Assembly: GCA_905221605.1 (NCBI GenBank)
Contig: CAJNDS010002851.1
Coordinates: 196,889-260,888 of the forward strand
Direction: 5' to 3'
Source of the DNA: Symbiodinium natans
Lineage: Eukaryota; Sar; Dinophyceae; Suessiales; Symbiodiniaceae
Length of the DNA stretch: 64,000 nucleotides
The notes below the pieces were generated by a model that was given only the letters and a program-made list of their open reading frames with translations, made no database searches and was not told the origin of the DNA. Within the stretch, counting starts at the first letter, position 1. The number at the start of each line of letters is the position of its first letter. Shown here in pieces: positions 41,354-63,372 of this stretch. The position numbers and the translations under genes are program-made.

Positions 41354-41392
<39 letters not shown>

Positions 41393-42979: not shown

Positions 42980-43031
42980 CTGTCGGGAAGCCAGGAGGTT
43001 CAGGGTAGAGGCCTTTCGGGGGTTGAGAGTG

Positions 43032-43135
43032 TGGAATATAGGGGTCGGAATAATTACGAATAGTCGCCCCTTAGGGTCCCTGTAGAATTTTACTATAGTA
43101 ACCTCCCAAAACCCTATTCTAATTATTCAGGCCAC
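43032..43135. mobile_element. MITE-like element, GAATATAGGGGTCGGAATA family
   Basis: About 105 bp, opposite orientation to copies at 6314-6420 and 59792-59904; shares TCGGAATAATTACGA and AACCCTATTCTAATTATTCAG. Confidence 0.8.
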
Positions 43136-43892
43136 GATATTAGGGTTTACATGGCTTGTAGGCTTGCAAGGTTCAAAGGGTTTCATCGGCTTTTATCGGT
43201 TTGTACGTACTAAGCCGGTTGCTGGGAGGGTCGGGCTTGAGCCTCACTCGAAAACTTCAGGGCTCACGACCCAATAGCGGGTCTCCAAAAGCTGGGAGGG
43301 GTATCCCTTTGCTGGGGGGTTCCTATACTCCCAGAAAACTTGGACCATAGTGTTTCTGGCTATGTTTGGAGAAACGAATGTGACTCAAAGTGCTCTCATT
43401 GTATTTCAACAACAACATGAGCCCCAAGATGAGAACCACGCACCATGCGTATCCACAAGCAAAAGGTAGCAATGAGAAGTGACAAATGGGAGGGTTTTGG
43501 GTTTAGGTCTTAGGGTATAAACATATCATTGCGGGAGATGCTTCGCTGCCAACAAACACCTATGAGAGGTCAGTGCAGGTACCATGGTGTACTAGAGCAG
43601 GCCATTGACCCCCAAGACCGATTGTCGTGTGCTACTAAACCCTATAAACCCAATAAACTCGACAAACCCCACGAACCCCTAAAAACAGAAAGCGCCTATA
43701 AACTTCCATGAATTCTAAGATGCAAGGTGCCAACAGCTGCAGTTTCCAACATGCTTCGACGCTGCCATGGTAGATCGAAGCCACATTGGGACAATCAAAA
43801 AGCCACCATGTGAGTAAGACGAAGCACGGCGCAATCCATGCACCAGAGCTGGACCGTTTCCTCTCTGTCTTGGCAGCTTCAGGACCTAGCAC

Positions 43893-45065
43893 CTAGCAGA
43901 AGGTGGCCGTCGTGATGCGAGCACAAAGAGCAAAAGCAGCGCCTGCAAGAGGACCGACAAGCAGCGTCCCGGCGATGGCCGCGCCAGTGCCCGCGCCAGT
44001 TGTGGCCGTTGCGCTCATTTTGCAACTTCGTTTCTGAGTCTCATCTGCACCAAAAGCTTGCTCGCAACGGCGGAGCTGGAAGAGAAACATTATGGTACCG
44101 CTCACGACTCCGCCAGCCACCATACCAGCATTTGCAGACTCCAGGGCCGAAGTTGCAAAGGAGTTCGCAGCAGCGGCAGAGCCAGCCACGACGCTGCCCT
44201 GAAACGCGCCTTCAGCAGCCTTTGACTTGATCTGTTCAGGCTTGTCGCCAGCGATCCGCGACACCAGCCCTGCAGAAGCCGCGCCAAGAGCGGCTCCGGC
44301 CATCGCAGCCGAAACTCCCACCTCGGCAGCAGTCGCAAGTCTACTCAGGGTGCTGGCCTGCTCCATGCCTGCCACCTCAACCCCATCCTGCAAGATCTTG
44401 TCTGCTTGAGCCCTGATGGATTCCGCATCTGCTGGTTCACTCTGCACGCCGCCATAGCAGATCCGATCAGTCGCCCCATGCTTGCTGGCCTTGTCTAAGG
44501 CCTCCGTGTTACAGACCTTCTGCATCCCTGCGTAGTCCGGGTTCCTAAGCCCCTTGCTGACATACTTTGGAGTTCCGCACTTCATCTGACACTGATCTAC
44601 AGTCTCCCCTGTGCTGGCGCGGACAATGCCAACGTCGGAGGGACTGTCAGAAGCAGATCCATACCATGCAGCTCTGAAAGGAGACCTCGAATAGATTGCG
44701 CTTTGATTGTAGGTGCGAGCGTGATGCTCCTCCATGAGCCACCCCTTTAGGATGTCGGGCGGTGCATCTGGGTGTCTGCTGACCATTTCGTGCATCTGCT
44801 GCTTCGAAGTTTGGTTGAGAGCCTGGAGCTCAAAGAACTTCTCGTGCTCGTCTGTGATAACGAGTGCTTCCCCCAACAGGGCCACAGCATGTTCGGCTCC
44901 GGATTTCTGGAAAGCAGTCTGCTTGTGCTCTTCATGGGAGGCCGACTCCACTGCAGACTGCCCATCTTGGACCTGGAGCTCTTGGGCGCGGCGACGCCGT
45001 GATGCCTTTTTCTTGGCGTAGTTCTCCTTCCATCGCTCATGCTGCGCCTCCTCAGCCTCGTCCAT
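43893..45065 (-). CDS. single-exon 390-aa protein with hydrophobic Gly/Ala-rich C-terminus
   Basis: Longest intact frame in the window, ending TAG at 43893. The frame is open further upstream without ATG, so the first ATG (45065, MDEAEEAQHERWKENYAKKK) is taken; an upstream exon is possible. Residues 1-60 are charged and helical (KASRRRRAQEL). A middle part carries spaced cysteines (CQMKCGTP, KVCN, RICYGG). The last third has three hydrophobic Gly/Ala-rich segments (about residues 250-275, 290-335 and 355-385) of glycine-zipper type, split by basic Cys-containing turns, which suggests membrane association. No family recognised. The 1.7 kb around it lacks telomeric repeats, unlike its surroundings; being intronless in an intron-rich region suggests a retrocopy or a different origin. 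Confidence 0.75.
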   Translation of the reverse strand: MDEAEEAQHERWKENYAKKKASRRRRAQELQVQDGQSAVESASHEEHKQTAFQKSGAEHAVALLGEALVITDEHEKFFELQALNQTSKQQMHEMVSRHPDAPPDILKGWLMEEHHARTYNQSAIYSRSPFRAAWYGSASDSPSDVGIVRASTGETVDQCQMKCGTPKYVSKGLRNPDYAGMQKVCNTEALDKASKHGATDRICYGGVQSEPADAESIRAQADKILQDGVEVAGMEQASTLSRLATAAEVGVSAAMAGAALGAASAGLVSRIAGDKPEQIKSKAAEGAFQGSVVAGSAAAANSFATSALESANAGMVAGGVVSGTIMFLFQLRRCEQAFGADETQKRSCKMSATATTGAGTGAAIAGTLLVGPLAGAAFALCARITTATFC

Positions 45066-45676
45066 CCTCTTACGATGCCACACCCTTACCACTTGGAGGG
45101 AGGCAAGGCACAGCCGACTGTGCGGGTTGCAAAGCGCCGCATGGCCGAGCTACCGCCAAGTCGTGAACCACCCCGCGCTTTGGCTATAGAGGCGCTGGGG
45201 CTCAGCGCTGCGTGGGGAGAGGGGTCGTTTCTAGTCTCGTGCTATCTATGTTGCTAAATACTTCGAACAAGCTGACCCTGAACCAAACAACTCCTAAAAC
45301 TGAACCCTAAATATCCTAACCTGCCCTTTGAGCCTTCATCCGAAACCGGAATCCAAAAGATGAACACTACATCGCAGACTCAACCTTGGCGAGGATTAAT
45401 TACCTCATTGATGGTTTAACCCTAGGCCCTGCAACCCTATAAACCTTCGGAGATACAGGGTTCTGGGTTAGTGTTTGGGAGAGTTGCAGAGTTGAGAAGA
45501 CGCTTGGCTTGCGACAAATAGAGTTCGTTTGGGGTTTAGGATTTCGAGGATCTAGGACATTTGGCTTGAAACTTGTATCGGGGCCATGTGGTGATTAGGG
45601 TTCAAAGGCTTTGAAGGGTTTGACTCATAGGGTTTAGGACTCGTTGGGTGTAGGCCTCGCAGGGAACCACCCAGCC

Positions 45677-45748
45677 AGCGGGCCCAGTTGATGTGGGCGT
45701 GGCCGGCGTGCCGCCTGGGCGTGGCCGGTTCTTTTCCGTCGCTGGCAC
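45677..45748 (-). CDS. candidate exon
   Basis: GC-rich island after tctag|GTGCCAG, with two copies of GGGCGTGGCCGG in the plus strand. All three frames are open, so no product is proposed. Confidence 0.3.
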
Positions 45749-45996
45749 CTAGAAAGGTTTCGAGTTGAAACGCGAAACTCTCATCCCTAAACCCTCAACC
45801 CCTGAACCCTGAACCCTCAACCCTGAAACCTCAACTGCTTCCTTGATGGGGTTAAAGCCAAAATATCATGTCTGTTCCTTCTTGGGAATTTAACATGACA
45901 AACATGTAAAATTATAACCAGCAAGGACCCAGTCAGCCCTTCAAACCCTCGTTTTTTTGTCCACAGAGAAGACCCACTGCAGCCTTGAGGGTTTTT

Positions 45997-46113
45997 CACG
46001 GTTTAGGGTTTAGGGTTTAGGCTTAGGGTTTAGGGTTTAGGGTTTAGGGTTTAGGGTTTAGGGTTTAGGGTTTAGGGTTTAGGGTTTAGGGTTTAGCGTT
46101 TAGGGTTTAGGGC
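45997..46113 (+). repeat. interstitial TTTAGGG array
   Basis: About 16 units with one GGCTTAGGG and one GCGTTTAGGG variant. Confidence 0.95.
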
Positions 46114-47131
46114 TCTTCGGGTTTTAGGACTTTATAGTGCTTGGGTAATTTTCGGGCTTTTCAGGGTTTAAGATCTTTTAAGATTTGGGGTTCTCAGAGT
46201 TTCGGGCACTTTGAACCGTGCTATTAAGCCTAAACCCTAAACCCCAAACCCTAAGAAAAAGATCGAAAAGCCGCACCCTGGACCCCAAACACTCAAGAGC
46301 CTGAAGCAAAACAGTAAAAGCCCTAGGTTCAAACCACACGGAGCTTCAAGGTTTTTGGATTCGTGTAGGTCCCTTTCTCACCTGCTAACTAAGCCCCCAA
46401 GGCCCTTATAAATAAACCCTCAACCCTAAAGCCTAAAGCCTAAACCCCAAACCCTCAACCCTAAACCCTAAACCCCAAACCCTAAACCCCAAACCCTAAA
46501 CCCGACTCCCTCCGAAAAAGACGCTCAGATCGCTGCAATTGGCTCTGGGTGGGCGCCACGTCTCTGGCGGCAGTTGGCTGGCTTGGGCCATAAAAGGTCG
46601 TCAAAGCGGCAGAAAGAGGGCTTACGAAAATAGGGTTTAGGGTTTAGGGTTTAGGGTTGAGGGTTTACGGTTTAGGGGCTTACGATAGTAGGGGTACCAT
46701 ATTGGGATCCTGATTTTCAGGGAATACTACTATTTGGGGGTCTATATTGGGGGCCCCCTCTTTTCGTAAACCCCCATATAATTGAGGCTGAGGGTGCGGG
46801 GCAATTCGTGCATGCAGGAAATTTAGGGAAGTTGTATGGCAGTTTGGGAACTAAGGGCCAGTAGGGACTGTGGGGAATCAAAGAACTCTGTGGTACTTAG
46901 GGCCTTTGGGGTGTCGAAAAAATTGTGTTGAAGGTTTTCCGGGAGATTTGCAGGAGGGCTTTCGGGCGCGCGTTTAGCGTCTCGGTGTTGAGGGTCTTTG
47001 GTGGTGCAGGGTCACCTTAACGATGCTGGTCCCCGCCATAGTAAAGGAGCTTCCCAAAAGGAACCCAGACATGCACTTCAGCCCCGAACGGGATGCTACG
47101 AGGAACCCGGAACCCTACACCCTGTAGACCT

Positions 47132-49428: not shown

Positions 49429-49527
49429 ATGCATATCTGATCCATTCAGCCCATAGCAGTAGCCACCTCCGAACTCGAAGCTTGGCTGAACATGGCCCTG
49501 CTCCGGCATGAGGTTCAGGGTCTCCAC
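49429..49527 (-). CDS. probable C-terminal exon of the HFM1-like gene
   Basis: 33 codons, VETLNLMPEQGHVQPSFEFG then GGYCYGLNGSDMH. Acceptor cccag|GTG, donor CAT|GTTACA, phase 0 on both sides, continuing from 49674. No domain recognised. Confidence 0.6.
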
Positions 49528-49628
49528 CTGGGATTAGGGTTTAGGGTTGACAGTTGAGCGTTTGAGCTTAGTGCTCGGGGCTTAGGAACCCTAAACCCTG
49601 AACCCTACAGTCCCTACACCAGTATACC

Positions 49629-49659
<31 letters not shown>

Positions 49660-52600
49660 AAACAACGCCCAACCTGCCCAGTGCATTTGGCACGGGCGAG
49701 GGCGAAGGTGGCCTCGTGCCCTGATTGGGGGGCCGCCACTTTGCGCTTCGGGGCCGCACGGGGAGCGCCCGCGTCTGCGTTCCTGCGGCAGGAGCCTCTG
49801 CACTGAGGGTTGAGGGGTCATGGAGTTACCTCAAGACTCCGAATGTAGTTCCTTTTGGGTCCGTGAGGGTGTTTCCATTAATTGACCTGAGAATTCAAAA
49901 GAGTCAGCAACCAACCATTGAGAGGTGTTTTACTCAAGAACAGCCCCAGGAGCTCCCTTTGCCAGAGTCCCGGTTTGGCGTGCAGGGCATGGCGGACGAG
50001 TTCAAGCTTGGAGCCAAACGAGAGTCCCCAAGAGCCTGAAGTTCATCCAGGCCCACCACGTCCTCATAGATCACGCGGGCCACGAGCCCTCGGGCGCGCG
50101 TTGAAGGATCTAGGGCACAGGGTCTCAGCGACTCGCCAGCTGAAAAGCTGCAACTTTTTCAATGAGGCATCCTGCGTGTTGCTGGTGACCGAAATCATGT
50201 GACCCGATTTGCCGACCGCGGGGCTTAAAACAGACTTCCGGCTTCCTTTATCGTCACCCTAGAAGAGACCTTGCCTGGTCAACTAACAGATCGCCCAAAA
50301 CCATCACCATGCGAATCTGTTTCGCTGGAATATATCAAGCGCGCTGGACCTTATGGAGTGAACCTATTTGAAGGGGCGATTGGTTCCTGCTGGTTTCTCG
50401 GTGTTCATGAGCATTTTCACTGCTCTGTTTCGCTGGGTTTCCGTACTGAGCTCCGCTGGGTTTTTGTAATCGGCTCCACTGGGGTTGCCCCCCTGGGCTT
50501 TTGGGGCATGGTCTTCATCTGGACCCGCTCGAAACTTTCAATCCGCACTAGTTAGTCACTAGTTCGCTGGAAACCCCTAAACCCCTAAACCCTAAAACCC
50601 TAAAACCCTAAACCCCTAAAACCCTAAAACCCTAAAACCCTAAAACGATCATGCGAATCATGCTTTTCCTGGTGACTGATGGAGAGGGCGACACTGAACT
50701 TGGAACCCTAGCAAAAATTGCAATTTTGGCTGTTTTTTTCGGAGTTGAAGTGCCCCCCAAAAAAATGAAAAATCACCTCCAAGTAGCCCAAAGTGATGGC
50801 TATACCCTAAACCCTAAACCCTAAACCCTAAACCCCTATAGGGAAGCCAAGCAGCCGCTGGCAGCCTGGAGCGTCACCGAAACACCCTGGGGCGGCTGCC
50901 GGGAGGGGAAGCGGAGGTGCTTCAGGAGCTGGCCCGTAGGTGCCGCATACACAACCAGATGGCTCCATGCCTGGGATTAGCATGGGTATAAGGGTTTCTT
51001 AGGGGCTGATGACCCCCTATGTAGCCCAAAAAAGGGTTAGCCGTTTAGGTATGGCAGGATTCTATGCAACCAAAAAGGTCTTAAGGTTTCCTACCCAGTC
51101 CCTCAATTGTTTAGGCTGTGTCCTTCCAGGGCTACAGTCGCGGGTTTGGGGGTGCGAATGGTACGTTTTGGGCGGCACAGAGATAACAACGCAGAACGCT
51201 TCCTGGGCCCCCCGGAGCGTGGGTTTAGGGTTGTCTTTCTAGGGTTCAGAGCGTCAGGGCATAGGGATTGCGACCCAGATACCCCCAGGGAACCTGTCTG
51301 CCTCATGGCATCTTGCGCGCTACTGGCCAGCTGAATGTACACAGTTCCGCCACCTCCCTGCGGGGTCCTCAGCTGAAACTGAAGTTTTTCTTTTTAGAGA
51401 GGGTTGGGGGGGGGGGGGGGGGGAGCTGTTCGAGATGCGACCCCATGTCCCCTCAGAAGTATAGTCAACACAACATGTGGAATTTTTCCTTCCTTGGGTA
51501 TTATAATAGATACAGGATGAACAAAAAGCATAGTCAAGAGTCAAGAACCTCAAAAGCCCAAACCTCAGCCTTCGAGCGCCCCTTACAACCCCAAAATTCT
51601 AAGCGTACAGAATCCCCACGCGAGCCTTGAAACAAAAGAAACACTACAGTCCCTGCGTCCAATAATCCCTTAATCCTATATAGATGCTGATCCCTATATA
51701 ACCCAAGCCCTAATCCCTGGCCAGGGTCAACCGCAGCCCGATACGAGGAATGCTGCGCAACTTTGCCTGCAGATCGGCGCCCGACACCCGGGATTGACCT
51801 TCGGCTTATAAAATCGCGGGGGGGGGGGGGGGTTAGGACTCTGGTTAGCCTTAGGGGCTGAATCACTCTTCCATGAGTTTCCATAAGACCCAAGAAACCC
51901 TTTACACTCCCAAGAGCCCTACGGATCCCGTAAACAGAGACATCCCAAACCACACGAAGTTAACCCCAAAACGCTGGGTCAACACCCCTCTAAACCCCTT
52001 TAAGACAAACCCTAAACCCTTAAACCCTTAACCCGAAATCCTAAATCCTAAACCCTAAACCCTATACCCTAAACCCTTAACCCTCAACCCTAAACCCTAA
52101 TATGGTTCATAAGTGCCCTGAACCTCCACTGGTGCCCTGAGCGGCAGGAGCGGTCGATCTGCTGCGGGTCTGCATTGCAGAGGCCCTGGAAGGAGGCCAG
52201 GCCGTGCTGGTGCAACGTCGCCGCGAACTTGTCCCCGATGCCTGAAAGGGTCTAGGGTTGAGGGGTTTCCCTAAACCCTAAACTCTGAACTTATAAAGCC
52301 TAAAGTCGTGCCTAAAGTAGAAGCACCCCAAAGGGGCAGGGATTTGGAGTTGGGTGTTTGGTCTTGGTCCTTGGGTATAGGCTCTAAAAAACTCAATGGG
52401 ATTTCTTGGGGGGCCTGAATCTCATCAGGTGCTTTCACTTGGCAGCGACATGTCAAAGGAAAACGCTGCCCTGAAATCCTGCAAATATTCGCAGAGAGGA
52501 TGCCCTTCAGCTGACGCACTGGCATTGCCGTGTCCTCTCCCACAGGTGCAACTATAACTAGGGGCCTCAACCCTACAAACTGGGTTGAGTTCAGGGGTTA

Positions 52601-55600
52601 GGGCTTTGTTTGGGTTGAAGGCTGAGAGGGTATATGGGACAAGTTGAAGGCCATTGCCTGCAGATGAGCCTTTCCGCTTCAACAGGTCCAGCTGCGAATC
52701 TGAGAGTCCCTTGTGGGGGTGCTTCTAGCGGAGGGCACGCTGCATGCTATGTATGGGGGCGTACCACTGCTTTAGACAACGCCCATCTGTGCATGTCCCA
52801 GAATAGGGGTCCCTTAACTTCTTATGGGAACTCCCAAGTAGCTACATCCTAAACCCTGCCATACACACGAGCAACCTACAGTCAACGGTCCTCCCAGAGC
52901 TGCGCGCGAAGGCCTCAGCAATACCAGCCGGTAAGCCCCAAAACCGAAACCCAAAACCCCAAGCCCCAGCCAAAACTCCTAAGTTCAGCCCTACATTTTG
53001 TATATCCAACAAACCTTAGACCCCTATGCGCACCCTTCCCGTCCTTCTAGCCCCCGGAGGTTTCCCCGTCCCCCGTGATTCGTGGTGTGTTTAGGGTTTA
53101 GGGTTAGGGTTTAAGGTTGAGGGCTTAGTTTCAGGGTTAAGGGGTCTCCATCCGTGGTGGAGCGCGGACGAATATGAACCCTATATACGCTATACTCGCT
53201 ACAAACCCAAAAGCCCGCTTCCCAGAAAAAAAACGCAAACAACACACCCGATAAACTGCCCGATGCCCCCCTTATCAACCCCTCACAGCCTTATAACTGT
53301 CGCCCTACCGACACTAGTCAACCCTAAACCTCAAACCCCTTGAGCTGATATAAACCCCAGGAGGGCGACCTGAGCCCGAAACCCCCCAAAAACCCCAAAA
53401 AATTGGGGGGGTTTGGGGCTTCAGCCCTAAACCCTAAACCCCTGCACCCTAAACCTCAGACCCGCCTGAATGCTCGCCCTGAAAAGTTTGTATCAGGGTT
53501 CCACACTCGTAATGGCGTGATGCAAGCGTTGTTGTCAGGTTCTCTGTATGTTCTGCCTGCGTAGACCGCAAACAGTGAGAGACCAGGTGAGCCCAGAAAT
53601 CCAGAAATCTGGCGAGCCCAGACGTTCAGAAGCCATGACAGCTTCGAGGACGGCGACGTACAGTCACGCTTGCGCCCTGACGAGAGCGCGACTTTTCGAT
53701 CAAAGGTTCGAGCAAGCTTCGAGAAAAAACGCATGGCGCGCAGCGCAACGCCGCGCGATGCTAAGGTGGCGACACTTCCGCAACAGCAAGCAAGCCGCCA
53801 CCGCCGGCCCTGCTGGCAGATTGTGGATTCCTAATAATAAGGGTTTAGGGTTTAGGGTTTAGGGGGACCTAAACACAGGCTTAAGGACCTTTATAATCCT
53901 GGACTCGACAAGTCTGAAAGAGCTACCCTAGTGTTCCAGCAGGCTGGAGGGTTCCTCATCCCTACCTCCCCCCCCCCCCCCCCCCGCGCGCACACACAAG
54001 CCCTCCTAAACCCTACTGCCCGAAACCCTAGACCCGGAAATCCTAAACCCCAAACCAGCCCAAACAACCTGAAGACCCAAGCTCTACATCCCGAAGCAGC
54101 CGTGTAAAATTGCAAATATAGCCACCTTTCAAAATTGAAGTTCTTGGCATTCCGTGCAAACAGCTGAACAGCTCCGAAGAACCCAGAACCCCCAAGCCCT
54201 TCATCCTAAAGCCCATGCCCCCAACCCACAAGCCTAAACCCTAAACCCTAAACCCCCCAAACACCGAACTAGAACAACACTAACCGGCAAGAAGCAGCTT
54301 GGACAACCCAAACCCTGAAAACCCGAAACCCCAACAACCCCCAAACCCTAAACGAGAAGGACCCAATCCGGTTGGGATGTTCTCCCTTATACTAACAGTC
54401 CTTAATAGGGATTCTCATAGGCGGGGGGGGGGTACTAGAATCCCTAAGCCCTATTAGGGACTGTTAGCATAAAGGAGACCATCCCAAACAATCCGGCAAG
54501 AAGCAGCTTGGCGCCTTGTCCCTGCGCTTCGAAGTACTCGGCGGCGACGTGGAGGAGTGGCTCGGCACGCCTGAGCACCTCTCCATGGGCATTGGTTTAG
54601 GGTGTGTTTTCCCCTTACCCTGAACCCTAAACCCTAAACCCCAAACCCTAAACCCTAAACCCTAAACCCGGGTAACGTACTGCCATGGGCATTTTCTGAC
54701 CTTGCAAGAAAACTTGGGATGCCACCAACACAAAGGGAAGCGAACTCATAGGGCTAACAAGGCCCCTAAGCCCACAACAAGCCTTAAGTCCCGCTTTAGG
54801 CTTTAGGGTTTAGGGTTTAGGGTTACCCACAGAAATGCCTGGGACCGAAAAGCCCCCAAAACCCTGAGGCAAACCTCAACCCCTCAAGCACGCAAGCCAG
54901 TAAAGACACTTAACGCCAGTGAGCCTGAAGCCCAACAAAAGCCCTTATAAACCCTACTCTAAACCTTAAACCCAAGGAGCCCAAAAATATCCGGCCACTA
55001 AACCCTAAACCCCTAAGCCCCATGACCGGATATCCCTTTAAACCCTGTGAACCTATAAACCCTAAACCCTATAAACCCTGTAAGCCCTATGAACTCTATA
55101 AAGGCTATAAACCCTGTAAACCCTATGAGGCCTATGAACCCTATGCACTATACAAACCCCATAAACTCCAACATAAACCTCTCTCTCTGTATACACCCGA
55201 TAAACCCTCATAAACCCCCATAAAGCCTATAAACTCCTGCATAAGCCTCTGCATAAGCCGCTCTAAGCCCCTATAAGCCCTTAAAGACGACAGTCCCCCA
55301 GGGCCGGCGCCTGGCTCTGCTGTGCCTTGAGATCCCAGGCTAGCTCTTGCCGCGGAGAGTCCGCAAGGGTCAGCATGATCAGGATCATGACCTGCGCTTC
55401 ACCCAAAGGCTCCAATGTAGTTCCTTTTGGGTTAGTTATAGGGGATTCTAGTATACTACCCCAAAAATGTACTACATAGGAGCCTTTGGGTAAGGATATA
55501 GGGTTTAAGGCTTAGGGCTTAGGAGATTCTATCTCGAACAGCCGTGAGCCTTAACTGCCTTCCTAACCCCCCACATCAAACCCTGAACCCCGAACCCCAA

Positions 55601-58600
55601 AAAAACAGCACAAACCCTAAATTTTCTGAATCCCAAAACCTTAAGCCCTGATTCCTGTTTGGAGAAACCAAAATCTCAGCTTGCTGCTTGCGGCACCTTC
55701 TTTGCGGCGGTGTCAACCGGCCCCGAAAGAGGCCAACCTCGTAAGAGTGTTAGGGTTTAGGGTTTAGGGTTTAGGGTTTAGGGTTTAGGGTTTAGAGTTT
55801 AGGGCTTGGGCATTTTAGGGTTGGGATTGGCAGGCAACCGCCTAGGGAGTTGAGCGTTCGTGAAGGAGGAGGTCTCCGGAGTTTCGGACTTTGGGGTTCT
55901 TGCTCAGGGTTTAGGGTTTAGGGTTTAGGGTTCAGGGTTCAGGGTTCAGGGTTTAGGGTTTAGGGTTTAGGGTTTAGGGTTTAGGGTTTAGGGTTTACAG
56001 ATTGAGACGCCGCGCGAGGGCGCCTAAATCACGCATTCTTCTTCTACATGTCGTACTGCTTCTGGACTCAAGTTCCCGAGATGTTGTCCAGTATGTTTTT
56101 GTGGGGTGCCTGGTTCCTAGTAGGACACTAGGAGTTCTTCAAGAGCTTGAGAGACGCTGGTGTTTTACAAGGTCTTCAGCTGCCAAGTCAAGGACTCCGC
56201 CAGGGTTTTATCAGGTATTATATTGTCTTCTCAAAACGAGGCAGAACCAGAAAGGCACAAAAAACCCGAAACCATCAGACCCATCCGCACATCCTCCCCA
56301 AATCCTCCCTCATTCTCTCGACCCCGTCGACCCCACAGCGCTCAATGCTAATATCCTCAAACCTCAAACCCCAGTACCTAAATCCACAAGCTCTCAACCC
56401 ACCCAATGGCTGCCCCCCCCCCCCCCCCCCCCCCCCCAAACCCACTCAAATTTAAAGCACCGTGAACCCCTCGACCCTGTATCCGCAAAAAACTCCTGGG
56501 CCCCCAGCGCACGGTGTGCCGCTTGGCCAGCGCCCGCAGCTGCGTTCGCTCGCCCTGCCTGGGGCGAAACCTGGCTGTGCAAGAGCTCGGTTTCGCGGAC
56601 TGTTGGTGGATGGCTTTTTCAGTTTAGAGCTCCAGCATGATGGTTTAGGATCGGCTCTTGTGGCCGTGTAGATTCTAGAGCATCTCTCGAGTGGCGGGCT
56701 TGTGGTGTTGGGATGGCAATGAAGATGGCTTTCGGGATCTAGAGAGTCCAGGGGTTCAGGGTCTTACATGCTCCCCAAACCCCTGCAAACATCTACTGGT
56801 ACAACTATAACTTATAACCCCCTTCGGACCACAATCTGAAAACCATATGTCGCTGTACACCAGTTTAGATTTACACAAACAAAAATGGCGGTTTCCGAAA
56901 ATAGGGGTACGCTTTTTGGGGGTCCCTTTGAGGGCATTCTATTCCATTCTATTTTGGCCCTAAACCCTAAACCCTAAACCCTAAACCCCAAACCCCAAAC
57001 CCCAAACCCTAAACCCTAAACCCTAAACCCTAAACCCTAAACCCTATGTTGGGAAATACCAAAATGAAGCCGGCGCAGGGGCCCCGGCTCCTCGAAGTCA
57101 TCCGTTGATGCCAGGAGCCAGAGGAGGTCCTGGCGCAACAGGGAGGAGGGTTTAGGGTTTAGGGTTTAGGGTTTAGGGCTTAGGGTTTAGGGTTAGGGTT
57201 AGGGTTGAGGGTTGAGAGTTGAGGGTTTGAAGGAGAGGGTTTAGGGTTTAGGGCTTAGGGCTTAGGGTTTATGTTTGGGCATTACAGGGATAGTGGTGTA
57301 GGGCATTCTAGGGCTGTGGGTTGTGCACGCACAAGATATTGCATCCTACGCCCAGAACCCCAAGAATGTCTCCCGCACTTCCCGGCCAAACTTCGACGAA
57401 ACGACCCTGAACTCTAAACCCTAAACCCTATACCCTAGAGCCCTAAGCCCTAAACCCTGAACCCTACACCCTAAACCCTATAACCTAAAGCCCTAAGCCC
57501 TAAGCCCTAAGCCCCAAGCCCTAAGCCCTAAACCCTAAACCCTAAACCCTCTCCTTCATGTCCTGAGGTGCCCCTGCGGCTTGCAGCTGGTGCAGCGTGC
57601 TCACGCGCACCCCGCTGCGGCACAGCGTCCCGCCGAGGGGGGTTGCCTGGAAGTCGGTGGGTTGCTGCCTCTACTGAACTTGGAACCCTCGCAAGAATGA
57701 TAATTACAGATGTTTCTTAAATGTTGTAGTACCCGAAAATTGAAATTATTCCCAAGTGTCCCTGAGCTGCAGGTTCTGGGAGATCAGGCCGGCTGCGCGC
57801 ATCTTCTCCTCCTCCGCGCGTGCGAGGAGCTGCAGAAATCCAGCCACGTCAGGCCCCGAAGGGAAGTTGAGGGGATGCGCCTGGCCCTTTTCATTCAACC
57901 TAGGATGGCCCCCTAAAAAGCCCTCTGAAAACACTTCCTACATAGAGTCCTCTTAAAACCCAAGTAAGGGAAAATATATACAACATATAGTCCTCTTAAA
58001 CCCAACAAAGGAAAATATGTAAACAGAGTTCCCTGAAACCCAAAATAAGGGAAAATTCAAAAAATGTCCCAAGACCTTGTACCGAGTAACGGGCAGGCTG
58101 TGGAGTAGCGCTGAGGATCCCTCGAGGACCTCACGGCAAGAAAGGTGCCAGAGAGCCAGGTGCAGAGCGACTGGTGGTTGTGAATGGAGCCTCCCACCAC
58201 CTGGGGCTTTCAATAATTTTCAATAACAAGTACCAGGATGGCCCTCAAAACCCTCTAAAGCATATTCTTGAACATATTATCTTCTTAAACCCAAGTAAGA
58301 GAAAATATGAAATCTTCTAGGACCTACTGAGATTATAGCACTTGGAGTGCAGAAGGGGGTAGCACCGCTTGTTTAGGAAGAGGCCGCCCCCGCCTCGCAA
58401 AGAAGAGCTTCGGTGAGCCTCTCGGGAAGCTTACTCTCCAGTGGCCGGCCTCGAGCAGATGCCCTAAACCCTAAACCCTAAACCCTAAACCCTAAACCCT
58501 AAACCCTAAACCCTAAACCCTAAACCCTAAACCCTAAACCCTAAACCCTATACCCTATAAACCCTAAACCCTAAACCCCAAACCCTAAAAGGCCTTCGAG

Positions 58601-61600
58601 CATCTGCTGCCACCGCCCAGAGAGGCCCTGCTCCGTGAGGATCACAGCCACCCCCTGGTCCTCGCTTCGCCGCTTCAGTGAAGAAACTGCAATCCTCTAA
58701 CCGTGTCGAACCCCTGCTTAGGTCTGTGAAACATAAGAAGCTAGGGCAAAGATAGATAGATAGAAAGTAGATAGTAGATAGTAGATAGAAGATAGACAGG
58801 CTGCAGGCACATAGAGAGATCGAAAAATGCAGATCTGCACTTTCTATTTCTTGTGACTTCCAGGATGTTCAAAACACCAATAAGCCATGGTGACGCTCAA
58901 GCTGTCCACCAAAATCCTAACCCCTAAACCCTAAACCCTAAACCCTAAACCCTAAACCCTAAACCCTAAACCCTAAACCCAAAACCCAGGCTGGAATCCC
59001 TGCAGGCATCAACCCCACGCTGCTGAACTGCCTTTCGAGAATGCCCTGCAGACCCTTGAAACCAAGCCCTCAATCCTTGCCAAAGCACTGCTACAGCCCT
59101 AACCCCCAAACCCTAAACCCTACACCCTAAACCCTAAACCCTAAACCCCCCCCTAAACCCTAAACCCTACACCCCTCCCCAAGCCCCAAGAAGTGCCAAG
59201 CTCAGTGTCATCGAACTGGGGTCGCCCAGCCCGGCCCATGATCTGCAACATCTCCAACTCGTCGTACTCCTCCCAGCCGCCCTCTTTGTACCTGGACGTC
59301 TAGGTTTGGGTTTAGGGTTTAGGGTTTAGGGTTTAGGGTTTAGGGTTTAGGGTTTAGGGTTTTGGGTTTAGGGTTTTGGGTTTTGGGTTTAGGGGATGAG
59401 GAGTGTAGGGAGTAGGGTTTACGGCTTGGGGTTTAGGAGTCAGGGTTGAGGTCGTATCGGAAGCCTTGGGCCTGGGGACCTTGGTCAGGGAATCGGGTTC
59501 TCAGAGTTGTAAACCTGATCTGAAAACCTTGAACCCAAGCCAGGTTGATGTCAAGGAATCTACACCAAGCTACCAGAAAAAACATACTAAGTACTACATG
59601 ACATATCATGTACCCTTATTACGCCACCGTGATTTTTGACAACGTGCCGCAGAAGCACCACAGCATAACCTGACTTGAACTCCGAGGCACGCCGTGGTTC
59701 CTTTCACGACGACCAGCCGCGCGGGAAGGTTCACGCCCAGTGCTAGTGTCTGCGTGCAGAACAGCACCTGGTCCAGGACAGAAAATATACGGGCCTTAAT
59801 AATTAGAATAGGGTTTTGGGGTTATTCTAGTAACATATTTCAGTATAGCTACAAAGGGATCATAAAGGATTACTATGAGTAAGTATTCTGACCGCCTATG
59901 TTGCCTCTTTGCAACACCTTAATGGGGTGGTTCAGGAATTTGGCTTTAGGGAGGGGCATATACCGAATGACCCCACCCTACACCCTACACCCTAAACCCT
60001 AAACCCTAAACCCTAAACCCTAAACCCTAAACCCTACCCTAAACCCTAAACCCTAAACCCTAAACCCTAAACCCCAAACCCTAAACCCCAAACCTAAACC
60101 CCAAACCCCAAACCCCAAACCCTAAACCCTAAACCCTAAACCCTAAACCCTACCCCCCCGGCCCGAAATCCCTCCGCCTGAACAGCACCTTGAAGGAAGA
60201 GTCCCTCCACCAGGTGCCGGTCTTGAGCCTCGGATCTGGGGTTAACAGGTTAAGGGTCTCGGGTTTAAGGTTTTAGGGTTTCAGGTTTAGGGGTTTAGGG
60301 TTTCAGGATTTAGGGTTTTGGGGTTAACAGGTTGGGGTTCCGGGTTTAGGGGATTAAACAATTTGGAGGGCTTGAGGGTTTAAGGGTTTAAGGGTTTTAG
60401 GGTTTACGGATTTAGGGTTAGGGGTTCAGGGTTTAGGGGTTTAGGGTTTTAAGGGTTTAGGGTTTTAGGGATTGAGGGTTTGAGCCTGGGATTTGGGGAT
60501 GACGTGGCGTGTAGGATTTGTTGATTGGGGTTCAAATCTTTGCGTGGCTCTTGTCATATGCCCTACGCCTACGCAGAAATGATGATCAAAGGACTCTTCA
60601 AAGAACGAGGAAGGCACTCATTCCCAAACCCCAAAACCCAAAGCTTCTCTCAACCCCACGAGACCCCCCAAAAACCAACCCTGATCCCCACAAGCCCTAT
60701 AAGCCCTCAACCCCAAAAGCGGAGAACCCTGAACCCCAAAAAACTTAAACCCAAAAAACTCAAACCCTGAACGCCAAAATCATAGCCGAAACCTCAACCC
60801 CCCCCCCCAAAAAAAAAAACATAATAAATATACATACTTAATATATATATATATATAGATATAAATAAACAAAACAAAACAAAACACATCGCAAAAGGGG
60901 AGCATTCAGGCCCGAGTGGTGGAAGGCCAGCCCGTGAGGCAGAAGACCCCGGAGAGCGGCATCCGAAGCCGCGGGCGCCTTCTCGCAACGGGCTTGAGGG
61001 CTTCCAGGATAACCTTGGGGCCCCTTATACATACACACATATACATATACAAATACAAATACATATAATAAATAAATAAATATACACATACTCATATTCG
61101 TGACTATATATGTAGATATATAGTTTTCCTGCATGCATATTTGTGTAAGGTTCGGGGTTGTCAGATTACGATCACCACTATTTGAACCCCTAAACCCATA
61201 GTCCTCCGAGCTCTGTGCCCAACTGGCCGCCTTCTGCTCCAGCCACGCGCATGCGCTGGGCGTCGACAGCCAGGCGCCCCCGCCGCGGAGGCTGGCCGCG
61301 GCTGTCTCGCAAGCCCTGGATTCGGGTGGGTCAGGTTGGGCTTAGGGCTTAGGGTTTAGGGTTTTGGGTTTAGGGCTTAGGGTTTAGGGTTTAGGGTTTA
61401 GGGGTACGGTACTATTGATGCTGGAATGAGGTGCCGAAAGCACCCATGTAGCACGGTTTCTGGCCAGAATGCTACAGAAGCCTTTGACCTACATAAGCCT
61501 AAGCCCTAGACCCCCAATTTTTTGAGAGACTGGGCCTCTTGGTCACGCAGAAGACCAGGGTCGCCTTGCCCTCGGAGTACCTCTGCTGGCTCCATTTGCT

Positions 61601-62733
61601 GTAGACCATGATGAACACAGCATGTCAAGGGTTTGGGGTTTAGGGTTTAGGGTTTAGGGTTTAGGGTTTTGGGTTCAGGGTTCAGGGTTCAGGGTTCACG
61701 GTCAGCCATGGGTTTTAGATGGGTTTTAGATGGGAGATTCCCAACAAAATACAAGGGACACCCTCTGTAGCCGCAAATATGGCAGAAGTCACCCCTTGCA
61801 GAATCCCTCAAAAGAAGAGGCGATCGACCCCACGCCAACAAAGATGCCGCTATAAGCCCTAAACCCTAAACCCTAAACCCTAAACCCTAAACCCTAAACC
61901 CTAAACCCTAAACCCTAAACCCTAACCCTAAACCCTAAGATTCCGAAGCAGGCTTGAGGTGCTGGTGGAGGATGTGTGGCAGCTCGCGGTTCAAGGACTC
62001 TTGGAACATGAACCTGCTTCGGGGTTTAGGGTTTAGGGTTTAGGGTTCAGGGTTTAGGGTTTAGGGTTTAGGGTTTAGGGTTTAGGGTTTAGGGTTTAGG
62101 GCTTTGGGTTTAGGATTAGGGTTCAGGGGTTTCGGTGGTTGTATGGGGCTTCAGGAGTTTAGGGGATTTTAGGGGTTTAGGGTTTAGGGCTGCTATGGGG
62201 TTTGAGGGGTTTCAGGGTTAGGGGTTTAAGATTTAGGGGTTTAGGGTTTAGGGCTGTTACGGGGTTTTAGGGTTTCTGGGGTTAGGGGTTGAAAAGTTTA
62301 GGGGTTTGGGGGGAGCTTAGGGCCACTATGTGCCATTATGGAGTTTTAGGGGTTTCAGAGGGGCTAGGGGCTAGGGGTTGAAGGAGTTTAGGGGTTTGGG
62401 GGAGTTTGGGGCCATTGTAGGGTTTGAGGGGTTTCAGGGGTTCGAGGTTTAAGGAGCTTAGGGGTCTTTGGGGGGAGTTTAGGGCTAACTTGCGGGTTGC
62501 AAGATTTCGGTCCTGTGGGCTTTGGAATTTGTTTTCCTTGGGGTTTGGAGGTTGTAGGGTTGGGGAATTGGGGTTTGGGACTTTGGGGTTGAAGCATGCA
62601 TGGGGGGATTTAGGGTTGAGGGTTTGGTTTAGGGTTTAGGGTTTAGGGTTTAGGGTTTAGGGTTTAGGGTTTAGGGTTTAGGGTTTAGGGTTTAGGGTTT
62701 AGGGTTTAGGGTTTAGGGTTTAGGGTTTAGGGT

Positions 62734-62793
<60 letters not shown>

Positions 62794-63372
62794 GGTTTAG
62801 GGAAAGGGAAAATGAGTCTGCGGTAAGACTGTTGAGCTGGGGGGAGGCGGTTTTGAGTTGTCGAGTTTATTTAGGCTTTGGAGTCAGGGCTTTTTGGGCT
62901 TGGGGTTCGTTTCAAGGTTGTCGGGGGGTCGCCCGCCACCTGGAAGTCGCCTCAACCCCTAAACCCTGCACCCTAAACCCTGAACCCTAAAAAATCTAAA
63001 CCCTAAACCCTCATCCAGCCATTCAAAGTCACGAAGCACCTGTGAGAACCCCCCCCCCCCCCACTTCCAAGCCAAGGAGCTCGTTCTTGCCGCCCCTGAA
63101 GCTTTGCACATGCACCTTGCGGTTTAGGGTTTAGGGTTCAGGGTTTAGGGCTTAGGGTGTGAGCAGTCCCCCCCCCAGTACACCGAAAAGCAGCTATAGA
63201 AATCTCCCCCCTGAACCCTAAACCGTATACCCTAACCTCCCTAAACCCTAAACCCTAAACCCTAAACCCTAAACCCCTTAAGCTTCGAAAGCCCCCCCAC
63301 CTGGAGAGGACAGGGCCGGTGCTCCCTGCCGAAAGCCTGGCAAAGGCCGGGGAACCCTGAGGTCGTCCAAGG
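49429..63372 (-). CDS. HFM1: HFM1/MER3-like meiotic DNA helicase, multi-exon, 5' end outside window
   Basis: Ski2-like SF2 helicase; HFM1/MER3 acts in the nucleus in meiotic crossover formation (family knowledge). About 27 short minus-strand exons, some 2.0 kb of coding sequence (about 670 residues), are spread over 14 kb. In order they show: the linker after motif III (FGREHRPCPLQ); GKATLVFCVTKR (motif IV); GLAFHHSGL; DRHLVEGLF; TLALGVNLPARLVVVKG (motif V); LQIMGRAGRPQFDD (motif VI); the AVILTEQ strand; the winged-helix part; and a Sec63-like part ending in a helix-hairpin-helix (IGDKFAATLHQHGLASFQGL). Walker A and the DEVH box would lie beyond 64000, so catalytic competence cannot be judged. 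The best match is HFM1/MER3: one helicase cassette, an EYDELEMLQ-type lead into motif VI, and an R(E)xRP linker. ASCC3 or BRR2 are less likely, since no second cassette follows. Junction phases agree except 58083/57829 and the stretch 56023-55391. The 3' end and stop were not identified. Confidence 0.88.
49674..49795 (-). CDS. probable C-terminal exon of the HFM1-like gene
   Basis: 40 codons, basic (RRNADAGAPRAAPKRKVAAP, ending KCTGQ). Acceptor gcagag|GC, donor CAG|GTTGGG. Phase continues from 50020. The C-terminal tail of HFM1 proteins is poorly conserved, so assignment rests on phase and order. Confidence 0.65.
50020..50088 (-). CDS. HFM1: HFM1-like exon
   Basis: Reads LVARVIYEDVVGLDELQALG then DS. 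The F/Y-E-D-x-VGLD block is the last recognisable family landmark. Canonical donor TCTC|GTTTGG. Confidence 0.72.
50694..50792. mobile_element. MITE-like element, ACTTGGAACCCT family
   Basis: Second copy of the family at 11820 and 57673. Confidence 0.7.
50853..50928 (-). CDS. HFM1: HFM1-like exon
   Basis: Reads LLKHLRFPSRQPPQGVSVTL then QAASG. Acceptor gccag|CTC; GC donor (GGCT|GCTTGG) gives the phase of the next exon. Confidence 0.65.
51313..51357 (-). CDS. HFM1: HFM1-like exon
   Basis: Reads GGGGTVYIQLASSAQ. Phase 0 exit at a GA donor (CAA|GATGCC). An alternative GT donor at 51293 would extend it by DAMRQT but breaks the phase of the next exon. Confidence 0.65.
51716..51798 (-). CDS. HFM1: HFM1-like exon
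   Basis: Reads QSRVSGADLQAKLRSIPRIG then LRLTLAR: the helix and L-x-x-xP strand after the helix-hairpin-helix. GA donor (GCCAGG|GATTAG) gives phase 0. Confidence 0.78.
52152..52241 (-). CDS. HFM1: HFM1-like exon: helix-hairpin-helix
   Basis: Reads IGDKFAATLHQHGLASFQGL then CNADPQQID: a helix-hairpin-helix DNA-binding unit followed by the DPxxIE-type turn. GC donor (GACC|GCTCC). Confidence 0.88.
52887..52913 (-). CDS. HFM1: HFM1-like exon, only 27 nt
   Basis: Acceptor tgag|GC, donor GACC|GTTGAC; reads LRAQLWED. The LW-(E/D) pair is a family landmark. It lies 1.58 kb from the preceding exon and 0.65 kb from the next. Confidence 0.75.
53095..54370. other. HFM1 intron without clear exons
   Basis: Part of the intron between 52913 and 54494. 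Contains a 104-codon plus-strand frame (53548-53862), free of repeats, basic and without splice or family support, and a C17 run at about 53970. Confidence 0.5.
54372..54487. mobile_element. MITE-like element, TTGGGATGTTCTCCC family
   Basis: Second copy: TTGGGATGTTCTCCCTTA ... TAAAGGAGACCATCCCAA, with inner ACTAACAGTCCT / AGGGACTGTTAGC. Lies 6 bp from the HFM1-like exon at 54494. Confidence 0.82.
54494..54578 (-). CDS. HFM1: HFM1-like exon: Sec63-like helix
   Basis: Reads VLRRAEPLLHVAAEYFEAQG then QGAKLLLA. GA donor (GCCG|GATTG) joins to the next exon as LLLA-G-LRAQLWED. Confidence 0.83.
55022..55280. repeat. degenerate CCCTATAAA/CCTATGAA repeat
   Basis: Loose ACCCTATAAACCCTGTAA words for about 250 bp; the Lys/Pro/Tyr frame on the plus strand is an artefact. 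Confidence 0.75.
55305..55391 (-). CDS. HFM1: HFM1-like exon: Sec63-like region
   Basis: 29 codons, VMILIMLTLADSPRQELAWD then LKAQQSQAP, matching the hydrophobic strand and helix of the Sec63-like domain. GC donor (GCGCCG|GCCCTG) gives phase 0. A dispersed 92-bp element abuts its 5' side (55401-55492). Confidence 0.82.
55401..55492. mobile_element. MITE-like element, TACCCAAAGGCTCC family
   Basis: Third copy, 92 bp, ends ACCCAAAGGCTCCAATGTAG and CTACATAGGAGCCTTTGGGT; it abuts the 5' side of the HFM1-like exon 55305-55391. Confidence 0.9.
55999..56023 (-). CDS. HFM1: possible 25-nt HFM1-like exon
   Basis: GATTTAG|GCGCCC...AATCT|GTAAAC reads SALARRLNL and takes the right phase from the upstream exon. 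The phase to 55391 closes only if a 16-nt micro-exon (55722-55737, LLASFG, GC donor) is also used. Speculative. Confidence 0.4.
56494..56574 (-). CDS. HFM1: HFM1-like exon
   Basis: Reads ARFRPRQGERTQLRALAKRH then TVRWGPR, which matches the basic R-x-x-E-x-x-x-L stretch at the start of the Sec63-like part. Acceptor gcacag|CC, donor AGGA|GTTTTT. Confidence 0.78.
57060..57129 (-). CDS. HFM1: HFM1-like exon
   Basis: Reads DLLWLLASTDDFEEPGPLRR then LHF. Acceptor gccag|GAC, canonical donor TTTTG|GTATTT. CCCTAAA array on the left, TTTAGGG array on the right. Confidence 0.82.
57548..57646 (-). CDS. HFM1: HFM1-like exon
   Basis: 33 complete codons, from ATPLGGTLCRSGVRVSTLHQ to QDMKER. The donor is AGG|GTTTAG: the first intron bases are already the telomere-type repeat. 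Confidence 0.8.
57673..57766. mobile_element. MITE-like element, ACTTGGAACCCT family
   Basis: Third copy; its right end touches the HFM1-like exon 57761-57829. Confidence 0.75.
57761..57829 (-). CDS. HFM1: HFM1-like exon
   Basis: Reads LLARAEEEKMRAAGLISQNL then QLR, a helix with a GLI turn. GA donor (CAGG|GACACT) gives phase 0. A dispersed 94-bp element (57673-57766) touches its 3' edge. Confidence 0.75.
57905..58065. repeat. CCTCTTAAACCCAAGTAAGGGAAAATAT repeat cluster
   Basis: Three tandem variants of a 45-55 bp unit (CTCTTAAAACCCAAGTAAGG, then GAAAATAT). A further copy lies at 58232-58312 and looser ones at 39128-39185 and 25020-25090. Confidence 0.75.
58083..58200 (-). CDS. HFM1: HFM1-like exon: winged helix
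   Basis: Reads VVGGSIHNHQSLCTWLSGTF then LAVRSSRDPQRYSTACP; the W-x-x-x-x-F-x-x-VR-x-x-x-x-P-x-x-Y pattern matches the family. The donor is either GT at 58082 or a GC upstream; the GT version does not match the phase of the next exon. Confidence 0.8.
58385..58449 (-). CDS. HFM1: HFM1-like exon: start of winged helix
   Basis: Reads GRPLESKLPERLTEALLCEA then GA, the VES-x-L-x-x-x-L-x-E-x-L pattern that opens the winged-helix domain. The exact donor (GC) is uncertain by 3 nt. Confidence 0.8.
58466..58588 (-). repeat. interstitial CCCTAAA array
   Basis: About 17 units, 6 bp from the HFM1-like exon ending at 58594. Confidence 0.96.
58594..58672 (-). CDS. HFM1: HFM1-like exon after motif VI
   Basis: Reads RRSEDQGVAVILTEQGLSGR then WQQMLE; G-x-AVILT is the strand after motif VI. 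Donor GAAG|GCCTTTTAGGG (GC), with a TTTAGGG-type run directly behind it. Confidence 0.88.
59204..59291 (-). CDS. HFM1: HFM1-like exon: helicase motif VI
   Basis: Reads YKEGGWEEYDELEMLQIMG then RAGRPQFDDT. Q-x-x-GRAGRPQ is motif VI with both arginines present. Acceptor gtccag|GTAC; phase 0 exit uses a GA donor (GACACT|GAGCTT). Confidence 0.95.
59691..59767 (-). CDS. HFM1: HFM1-like exon: helicase motif V
   Basis: Reads VLFCTQTLALGVNLPARLVV then VKGTT. T-x-LAxGVNLPA is motif V. Acceptor accag|GTG, canonical donor GGC|GTGCC. Confidence 0.93.
59792..59904. mobile_element. MITE-like element, GAATAGGGTTTTGGGG family
   Basis: Third copy of the family at 6314 and 43032, 25 bp upstream of the HFM1-like motif V exon. 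Confidence 0.78.
59985..60152 (-). repeat. interstitial CCCTAAA array
   Basis: About 23 units with CCCCAAA variants, just 3' (transcript sense) of the HFM1-like exon 60178-60235. Confidence 0.95.
60178..60235 (-). CDS. HFM1: HFM1-like exon with DRHLVEGLF
   Basis: Reads SEAQDRHLVEGLFLQGAVQ; the DRxxVExxF helix follows the HHAG block in the family. Acceptor ccag|ATCC, donor CAG|GCGGAG (GC). CCCTAAA-rich to the left. Confidence 0.85.
60908..60992 (-). CDS. HFM1: HFM1-like exon with GLAFHHSGL
   Basis: Reads RCEKAPAASDAALRGLL then PHGLAFHHSGL, the conserved A(Y/F)HHAG block of Ski2-like helicases. GA donor (GGCCT|GAATGC) joins as HHSGL-SEAQDR. Flanked by AT-rich simple sequence, not telomeric arrays. 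Confidence 0.88.
61212..61315 (-). CDS. HFM1: HFM1-like exon after motif IV
   Basis: Starts ccag|GGCTTG; reads ACETAAASLRGGGAWLS, then a Trp/Ala-rich helix ending SWAQ. The phase fits the next exon with a GC donor (CACAGA|GCTCGG). Confidence 0.72.
61536..61582 (-). CDS. HFM1: HFM1-like exon: helicase motif IV
   Basis: Reads RYSEGKATLVFCVTK plus a split Arg. LVFCxTK is the motif IV signature of Ski2-like helicases. GC donor (AAGAG|GCCCAG) restores the phase with the next exon as TKR-ACETAAASL. Confidence 0.88.
61854..61938 (-). repeat. interstitial CCCTAAA array
   Basis: About 12 units, 6 bp from the HFM1-like exon at 61944. Confidence 0.96.
61944..62013 (-). CDS. HFM1: HFM1-like exon
   Basis: Reads FMFQESLNRELPHILHQHLK then PAS. 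Acceptor gcag|G. Phase 0 exit requires a GA donor (TTCG|GAATCT). Directly bracketed by CCCTAAA (left) and TTTAGGG (right). Confidence 0.8.
62028..62110 (+). repeat. interstitial TTTAGGG array
   Basis: About 11 units, 15 bp from the same exon on the other side: a clean example of the bracketed layout. Confidence 0.96.
62631..62800 (+). repeat. TTTAGGG array switching to TTGAGGG
   Basis: About 14 TTTAGGG units followed without interruption by about 10 TTGAGGG units. Confidence 0.96.
63081..63115 (-). CDS. HFM1: HFM1-like exon, 35 nt
   Basis: Reads VHVQSFRGGKNE. The frame joins the next exon as KNE-FMFQESL only if the donor is GC (AACGA|GCTCC). A GT lies further on at 63064 but breaks the phase. 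Confidence 0.75.
63301..63372 (-). CDS. HFM1: HFM1-like exon: linker before motif IV
   Basis: Reads ...CQAFGREHRPCPLQ after ctcag, donor CAG|GTGGGG at 63300. FG-x-E-x-RP-x-x-LQ is the conserved linker between the two RecA domains. CCCTAAA array to the left, TTTAGGG array to the right. Confidence 0.8.

Follow-up and report, generated by a model that had tools for sequence, protein, structure and literature searches.

In a MER3/HFM1-type (Ski2-like) helicase gene of Symbiodinium natans, telomere-type repeats follow a nearly fixed strand rule: in the transcript, the donor halves of the introns carry UUUAGGG and the acceptor halves carry CCCUAAA. The gene is partly contained in the window (the whole 64-kb stretch of DNA that was analysed), and 19 of its introns were placed. 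Within 250 nt of the donor, the 5' halves of these introns contained 78 exact copies of TTTAGGG and 0 of CCCTAAA, and within 250 nt of the acceptor the 3' halves contained 76 exact copies of CCCTAAA and 15 of TTTAGGG. The corresponding counts with one mismatch allowed in the same zones were 153 to 7 and 144 to 25. The bias faded at 250-399 nt, where the 5' halves held 8 TTTAGGG and 8 CCCTAAA and the 3' halves 2 TTTAGGG and 5 CCCTAAA; 131 of the 192 exact copies counted to 399 nt were within 150 nt of a splice site. The 17 internal exons had no exact copies and three at one mismatch. The original prediction was that every intron has UUUAGGG at its opening and CCCUAAA at its close. Its polarity is what these counts show, but its symmetry is not, as only 4 of the 19 introns had exact copies within 150 nt of each end.

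Since the copies of a heptamer are not independent of each other, blocks of at least two copies were counted too. Twelve TTTAGGG (G) blocks were located in 5' halves and one in a 3' half, and the CCCTAAA (C) blocks numbered 1 and 10, respectively. Of the 24 blocks, 22 were oriented as the nearer splice site predicts (flip test, p = 3e-5; Fisher p = 9e-5), as were 27 of 31 when single copies were counted as well. The discordant blocks were a G block by the acceptor of intron R-S and one C block in intron B-C. The block of intron J-K was scored as 5' because the array is centred slightly ahead of the intron midpoint, and at least six of its TTTAGGG copies are within 54 nt of the acceptor. All 14 donor ends with a strong array kept to the rule, as did 10 of the 12 such acceptor ends (p = 1e-5). 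G-quadruplex (G4) motifs were found on the sense strand at 10 of 19 donor ends and on the antisense strand at none, and at the acceptor ends they were antisense in 7 of 19 and sense in 2. A general G/C skew of the introns was discarded as the cause, as no such skew was seen in introns K-L, L-M and M-N, which have no array of at least two copies.

The gene was located on the minus strand at 49674..63336 by protein matches, a tblastn exon map and the junctions of relatives, and its earlier exons presumably lie beyond the window. A composite of the minus-strand exon peptides (49-63 kb) had dinoflagellate MER3/HFM1 helicases as its top matches, from Effrenium voratum, Durusdinium trenchii (P0003) and a model named Skav, which we take to be Fugacium kawagutii. 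After splicing, the 395-aa product fell in the same protein group, with 64% identity to Effrenium voratum. Shorter models were closer over the part they covered, namely P0129 (77%) and P0193 of Symbiodinium sp. KB8 (73%). By taxonomy look-up, Symbiodinium sp. KB8 and Effrenium both belong to the Symbiodiniaceae. A Pfam search with a rough exon join found Helicase_C and a weak ATP-grasp_IQCH match far under its cut-off. It had been expected from the letters that all exons are on the minus strand and are bounded by switches between CCCTAAA and TTTAGGG; the stretch at 49.7-63.3 kb indeed consists of minus-strand exons of this one gene, and the switch points at 59204, 61536, 63081 and 63301 are at exon edges or not more than 6 nt from them, with those at 57060 and 61944 within 30 nt of exons. 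The other eight switch points that had been noted are outside this gene.

The introns were placed by hand, using tblastn-mapped relatives together with a reading of the flanks; the intron counts cover neither the exons that lie between S and W nor the junction linking X with the last exon. The donors were 12 GC, 3 GT, 3 GA and 1 ambiguous, and the acceptors were AG|G, a tally that is no independent evidence, because the boundaries were picked knowing the dinoflagellate rules. The 17 internal exons are 35-126 nt in length and comprise 1185 bp together. When joined, the exons were open in one frame, and the two remaining frames contained 15 and 5 stops. In an alignment check of 16 junctions against 10 relatives (A-B, R-S and W-X were left out), at least 8 of the 10 relatives were free of indels in the six surrounding columns at 11 of the 16 junctions; elsewhere the support came from seven relatives at L-M and from one to five at N-O to Q-R. 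The splice sites are thus ordinary dinoflagellate GC/GT/GA-AG|G sites of spliceosomal introns as found in the Symbiodiniaceae, with the reading frame and the relatives in agreement. The donor frequencies published for Symbiodinium natans, as given in the accessible text, are GC 58, GT 23.6 and GA 18.4% (PMC10666404).

All introns are described here in the direction of transcription (minus strand). Intron A-B (GT-AG, 185 nt, 63116..63300) has six TTTAGGG at 27-85 nt from the donor and three CCCTAAA ending 7 nt from the acceptor. Intron B-C (GC-AG, 1067 nt, 62014..63080) has four donor-side TTTAGGG and long CCCTAAA arrays up to the acceptor, with one C block in its 5' half, and intron C-D (GC-AG, 382 nt, 61581..61962) has ten TTTAGGG on the donor side and four CCCTAAA ending 58 nt from the acceptor. 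In D-E (GC-AG, 220 nt, 61316..61535), five acceptor-side CCCTAAA are accompanied by degenerate TTTAGGG on the donor side. E-F (GC-AG, 252 nt, 60979..61230) has one TTTAGGG, 36 nt from the donor. The 3' half of F-G (GC-AG, 675 nt, 60229..60903) contains eleven CCCTAAA and its 5' half degenerate TTTAGGG. G-H (GC-AG, 410 nt, 59768..60177) has sixteen donor-side TTTAGGG and one CCCTAAA 184 nt from the acceptor, with degenerate CCCTAAA closer to it. H-I (GT-AG, 399 nt, 59292..59690) carries only acceptor-side copies, nine CCCTAAA, and I-J (GA-AG, 549 nt, 58661..59209) two TTTAGGG blocks in the 5' half only. Fifteen TTTAGGG occupy nearly the whole length of J-K (GC-AG, 144 nt, 58450..58593), the chief exception at the acceptors. 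An exon flank at J-K, TGCTCGAAGGCC, resembles the sequence at the 3' end of the intron and is TSD-like, though a score as high was also reached by 11 of 342 mismatched pairs.

Exact copies were absent from K-L (GC-AG, 58201..58393) and from M-N (GA-AG, 114 nt, 57647..57760), most of which is overlapped by a repeat copy at 57669-57766. L-M (57887..58083, boundary uncertain by about 1 base) has one TTTAGGG 31 nt from the acceptor and weak degenerate TTTAGGG on the donor side. N-O (GA-AG, 424 nt, 57130..57553) has TTTAGGG starting 7 nt from the donor and CCCTAAA on the acceptor side; O-P (GC-AG, 518 nt, 56571..57088) has nine donor-side TTTAGGG only. P-Q (GC-AG, 771 nt, 55738..56508) contains two CCCTAAA blocks in the 3' half and degenerate TTTAGGG in the 5' half. 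Q-R (GT-AG, 305 nt, 55392..55696) has one donor-side TTTAGGG, degenerate CCCTAAA and a palindromic repeat copy adjoining the acceptor. The blocks of R-S (GC-AG, 732 nt, 54579..55310) run G, C, G, followed by a single C copy at the acceptor, and W-X (GC-AG, 767 nt, 50089..50855) has two TTTAGGG blocks, in the 5' half only. A 135-bp piece inside R-S (54667-54801) is flanked by CCCTAAA and TTTAGGG as the exons are. It scores as non-coding, ranking last in coding score among 20 such segments, and is a candidate for a lost exon or a captured fragment.

The two ends of an intron were independent of each other. Degenerate arrays, called at p <= 0.01 with 100 shuffles each, were found at both ends of 9 introns, at the 5' end only of 6, at the 3' end only of 2 and at neither end of 2; R-S was scored as acceptor-only though its acceptor end has a G array too. 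Arrays at both ends were expected in 8.7 introns from the margins (Fisher p = 1, although a sample of 19 introns might fail to reveal a modest association), and the strengths of the arrays at the two ends were not significantly correlated (Spearman 0.18, p = 0.46). The co-occurrence that end-pairing introns call for was therefore not observed. Inverted repeats of at least 8 nt joined an intron's own ends in 1/19 within 30 nt, compared with 7% for ends taken from different introns; the values were 4/19 vs 31% at 60 nt, 8/19 vs 44% at 100 nt and 10/19 vs 49% at 150 nt. Independent ends, together with no excess of complementarity within the same intron, indicated a rule that is local to each splice site.

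These results bear on the idea that the intron ends pair as RNA and draw the splice sites together, as has been suggested for Amoebophrya introners and for fish (AC)-(GT) introns. Some introns are predicted to do so: A-B folded at -94 kcal/mol with 57 of its first 92 bases paired with the last 92, and in the minimum-energy folds the number of end bases paired was 91 of 120 for N-O, 72 of 120 for C-D and 73 of 120 for P-Q. The expectation that the introns fold end to end thus held in the model for these four, but it failed for B-C, which has arrays at both ends and paired 0 of 120. Besides the independence of the ends and the lack of own-pair excess, complementary arrays were commoner around exons (7/17) than around introns (4/19), and since pairing across an exon would favour exon skipping, this excess counts against pairing. 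Moreover, the array-free introns K-L and M-N have the same kinds of splice sites. Hence the proposal that paired ends join the splice sites was not sustained, and we regard it as improbable.

The age of the introns relative to the arrays was approached through the predicted proteins of 13 relatives, in which 23 alignment events (inserts, deletions and ends of homology) were recorded. Thirteen of the 23 events were within 3 residues of a junction of the window, a zone that comprises 27% of the protein (p = 0.002), and 10 were elsewhere; the events are not fully independent, because P0001 and P0002 are nearly identical and one event is a model's first methionine. The clearest breaks were at N-O (P0001/P0002, P0004 and P0123), D-E and H-I (P0129), P-Q and Q-R (P0006) and E-F (P0193). 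The purity of the arrays was 94-99% in several introns. With relatives breaking at the same junctions and arrays of such purity, those arrays look younger than the introns that hold them, which suggests that several introns are common to the family and older than the purest arrays. At the E-F junction, P0193 of Symbiodinium sp. KB8 leaves the helicase sequence and continues with VGLGF, which could be encoded by sense TTTAGGG repeats, in this one protein model; GLGF was found inside 3 other proteins of the 208 examined.

Introners with telomere-type inverted ends could also have made the introns, with many of them losing one end and slippage keeping the rest pure. The order of G at the 5' end and C at the 3' end would follow directly from such elements, and the five introns with both kinds of block have G first, with an extra G block only in R-S. 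Introners have been reported in several dinoflagellates, and terminal inverted repeats in 72 of 177 families surveyed across eukaryotes, in the text available to us. Ungapped junction runs were slightly longer for the introns' own flanks than for permuted ones (means of 3.05 vs 2.63, p = 0.036), the flank similarity being highest for J-K, G-H and E-F. By local alignment, however, the junction flanks did not score above mismatched pairs (p = 0.73), 11 of 342 of which reach the score of J-K, and the excess of direct repeats at the junctions is weak at most. After the arrays were masked, the window gave 18 short repeat pairs, a few of them touching introns, and no family common to the introns. 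Arrays of 92-97% purity at one end of I-J, O-P and W-X face no significant array at the other, and H-I has a 149-nt array of 89% purity. The inverted-repeat part of the published definition (8-20 nt, arms not more than 30 nt from the ends) fitted 1 of 19 introns, N-O, with exact repeats of at least 8 nt. As several intron positions also look older than the arrays, an origin from introners seems unlikely.

Alternatively, repair by telomerase or telomeric RNA may have extended the 3' ends of breaks with TTTAGGG, each side being capped outward like a small chromosome, so that joining left G and then C. The polarity of telomerase predicts G to the left and C to the right of a break, singly or together, and the insertion of interstitial telomeric sequences (ITSs) at breaks is documented in mammals in the accessible part of PMC7215372. 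One-sided addition would fit J-K, and the non-coding piece of R-S at 54667-54801 is capped outward on both sides. If the breaks fell in existing introns, however, lone G arrays would not be expected to be confined to the donor half and lone C arrays to the acceptor half, yet they are so confined in the introns with one kind of block (J-K spans the midpoint). If the introns arose from the breaks, new positions would be expected, and several look old. Break repair as the whole explanation is accordingly quite unlikely.

Our preferred reading, held tentatively and at somewhat less than an even chance, is that these are spliceosomal introns with interstitial arrays of the telomere type, the strand of which is fixed at each splice site independently and kept where it suits splicing. 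The rule appears local because it holds in introns with one array, its sign switches with the kind of splice site, and the copies cluster by the splice sites. The repeats would have entered or expanded within existing introns, by insertion of the telomerase or break-repair type or by slippage, and arrays would have been retained beside exons where their sense strand suits splicing. On the donor side, sense G-runs capable of forming G-quadruplexes might help, or be harmless, after the often weak GC and GA donors. On the acceptor side, CCCUAAA might be kept since it has neither AG nor GT, and UUUAG|GG would mimic the acceptor AG|G; TTTAGGG itself contains AG, and its tandem copies contain GT. 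Avoidance of such decoys was rejected as sufficient alone, as close to the donor only G arrays are present in the donor halves. Because it leaves the absence of CCCTAAA near donors unexplained, a benefit of sense G-runs is assumed there. According to the accessible text of PMC9065059, sense G4s in vertebrates are enriched just after weak donors, and in a minigene the mutation of such motifs led to more exon skipping; the same text gives vertebrate acceptors a weak strand asymmetry towards sense and Arabidopsis a depletion of G4s (PMC9065059).

Several observations go against the favoured explanation of retention at each splice site. The acceptor ends of J-K, R-S and L-M hold sense TTTAGGG, just where decoys would be expected to do the greatest harm; J-K is packed with decoy acceptors, and its removal is deduced from homology only. 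The donor-side G arrays contain GT dinucleotides. The asymmetry of vertebrate acceptors is the opposite one, and the rule is well fixed in one gene only. A wider form of this explanation, in which exons genome-wide tend to be capped outward by telomere-type arrays, with a sense strand rich in G after the donor and rich in C before the acceptor, that act as splice-site or exon-definition elements and compensate for weak GC and GA donors, is possible but rather doubtful.

The repeats are abundant throughout the window, which has a GC content of 51%. Its plus strand contains 361 CCCTAAA and 396 TTTAGGG, 757 heptamers in total, where 100 shuffles of the 64 kb that preserved dinucleotides averaged 29.8, and 114 arrays have at least two copies. 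Neighbouring arrays in the order CCCTAAA to TTTAGGG (n = 28) were spaced 93-147 in 20 cases, and those in the order TTTAGGG to CCCTAAA (n = 28) were spread over 66-3898. As tandem telomere repeats at internal sites, the arrays are ITSs; the telomere unit of dinoflagellates is TTTAGGG in the sources as available. Arrays on both strands around genes, and a contig of 260,888 bp, suggest that the window is internal to a chromosome. A scan of IMG/VR for CCCTAAAx2-N90-120-TTTAGGGx2 had zero matches, in a collection that may omit records near this genome, and Rfam gave nothing at gathering scores in the window. Other repeats include long simple repeats at 10654-11077 and 23698-24210 (hexamer GTAGTC/GTAGTA and CA/CG-type) and three copies of a palindromic MITE-like element of about 95 bp at 33174-33272, 47127-47225 and 55401-55494, the last of which is 9 nt from the acceptor of Q-R. 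Repeat pairs of 72-82% similarity were found at 11812-11916/57669-57766, 6315-6420/43031-43133 and 26132-26232/38844-38937.

Outside the helicase gene, the rule was examined with a codon score trained on the 395 helicase codons, on which the test rests, and applied first to array-bounded segments of 60-240 bp. Thirteen segments within 783..46677 (no strand assigned) are CCCTAAA-(about 100-140 bp)-TTTAGGG pairs, and they were more coding-like than the other orders. The median coding score was 17.6 for C-to-G (n = 13), 10.4 for G-to-C (n = 9), 11.6 for G-G (n = 10) and 9.8 for C-C (n = 7), and C-to-G differed from G-to-C with p = 0.0012. For segments outside the gene that were chosen by codon score without regard to arrays, after overlapping, low-complexity and >600-bp segments were dropped, 48 of 68 flanks faced outward at threshold 16 (p = 0.0009) and 21 of 29 at 20 (p = 0.024); at the strictest threshold of 25, 11 of 18 did so (p = 0.48). 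In the gene region the values were 20/24, 18/21 and 14/16 at thresholds 16, 20 and 25, with 51% for random placements. The outward rule thus probably extends past the helicase gene, with uneven support.

The weakening outside the gene as the threshold rises (48/68, 21/29, 11/18) is what would be seen if the pattern were a feature of a single gene or contig, or had expanded from a small number of early seeds without any general rule behind it. The higher scores of C-to-G than of G-to-C segments outside the gene (p = 0.0012) and the VGLGF just past the E-F junction in the protein of Symbiodinium sp. KB8 argue against such a restriction, and we give it little credence. The window also contains an intron-free open frame of 418 aa on the minus strand at 43893-45149 with a strongly coding codon score. 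Among 7996 candidates scored, its matches at E <= 0.001 were only to the window's own protein P0122, and Pfam gave a weak MRP-S26 match under its cut-off. The heptamers nearest to this frame are single copies about 150-220 bp off, with no array.

The original prediction also held that no described intron class is built from telomeric repeats in this orientation, and none was found in the open-licence literature as accessible. The literature search covered open-licence papers, so the novelty is provisional: a strand rule of telomere repeats relative to splice sites appears new, with ITSs, dinoflagellate introners and fish introns with complementary ends as its nearest counterparts. Fish (AC)-(GT) introns reportedly have simple complementary repeats at both ends, with end pairing as the point of the arrangement; they share complementary simple repeats at the ends with the introns studied here, whose ends, however, are independent. 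Short ITSs are likewise telomere arrays inside chromosomes, some of them intronic and possibly arising by break repair, but the accessible text describes no orientation rule at splice sites, whereas the present arrays adjoin exons and switch strand at each (PMC7215372). The introners and non-canonical introns of Amoebophrya have inverted repeats of 8-20 nt at both ends, in the portion available (PMC7789003), and introners are reported in Prorocentrum cordatum by a paper whose accessible text refers to supplementary tables of introns with simple inverted repeats (PMC10666404). These too are dinoflagellate introns with complementary sequence near both ends; the introns described here differ, as far as those texts go, in having the telomere heptamer, often at one end only, the usual splice sites of the Symbiodiniaceae and an end inverted repeat in 1 of 19. 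Splice-site G4s resemble the donor side in that sense G-runs lie just after donors and are enriched at weak ones, but in the accessible text they are vertebrate, are not telomere arrays and have no mirror-image C bias at acceptors (PMC9065059). The AAACCCT repeats of Eimeria, also an alveolate, form arrays of a telomere-type heptamer that are abundant in non-coding DNA, yet they belong to another group, and the available texts describe no strand rule at splice sites (PMC9131526, PMC7564333, PMC4287421).

In this gene the commonest simple repeat of the window is tied to each splice site. Dinoflagellate introns are recognised despite variable donors, and the strand rule is a directly testable candidate for what guides the spliceosome to exons of 35-126 nt. 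The same repeat occurs in two orientations at two kinds of site, and it could serve as a marker that separates the mechanism of insertion from selection. Even if only biased retention were at work, splicing would here have left an unusually sharp imprint on a genome's repeat content.
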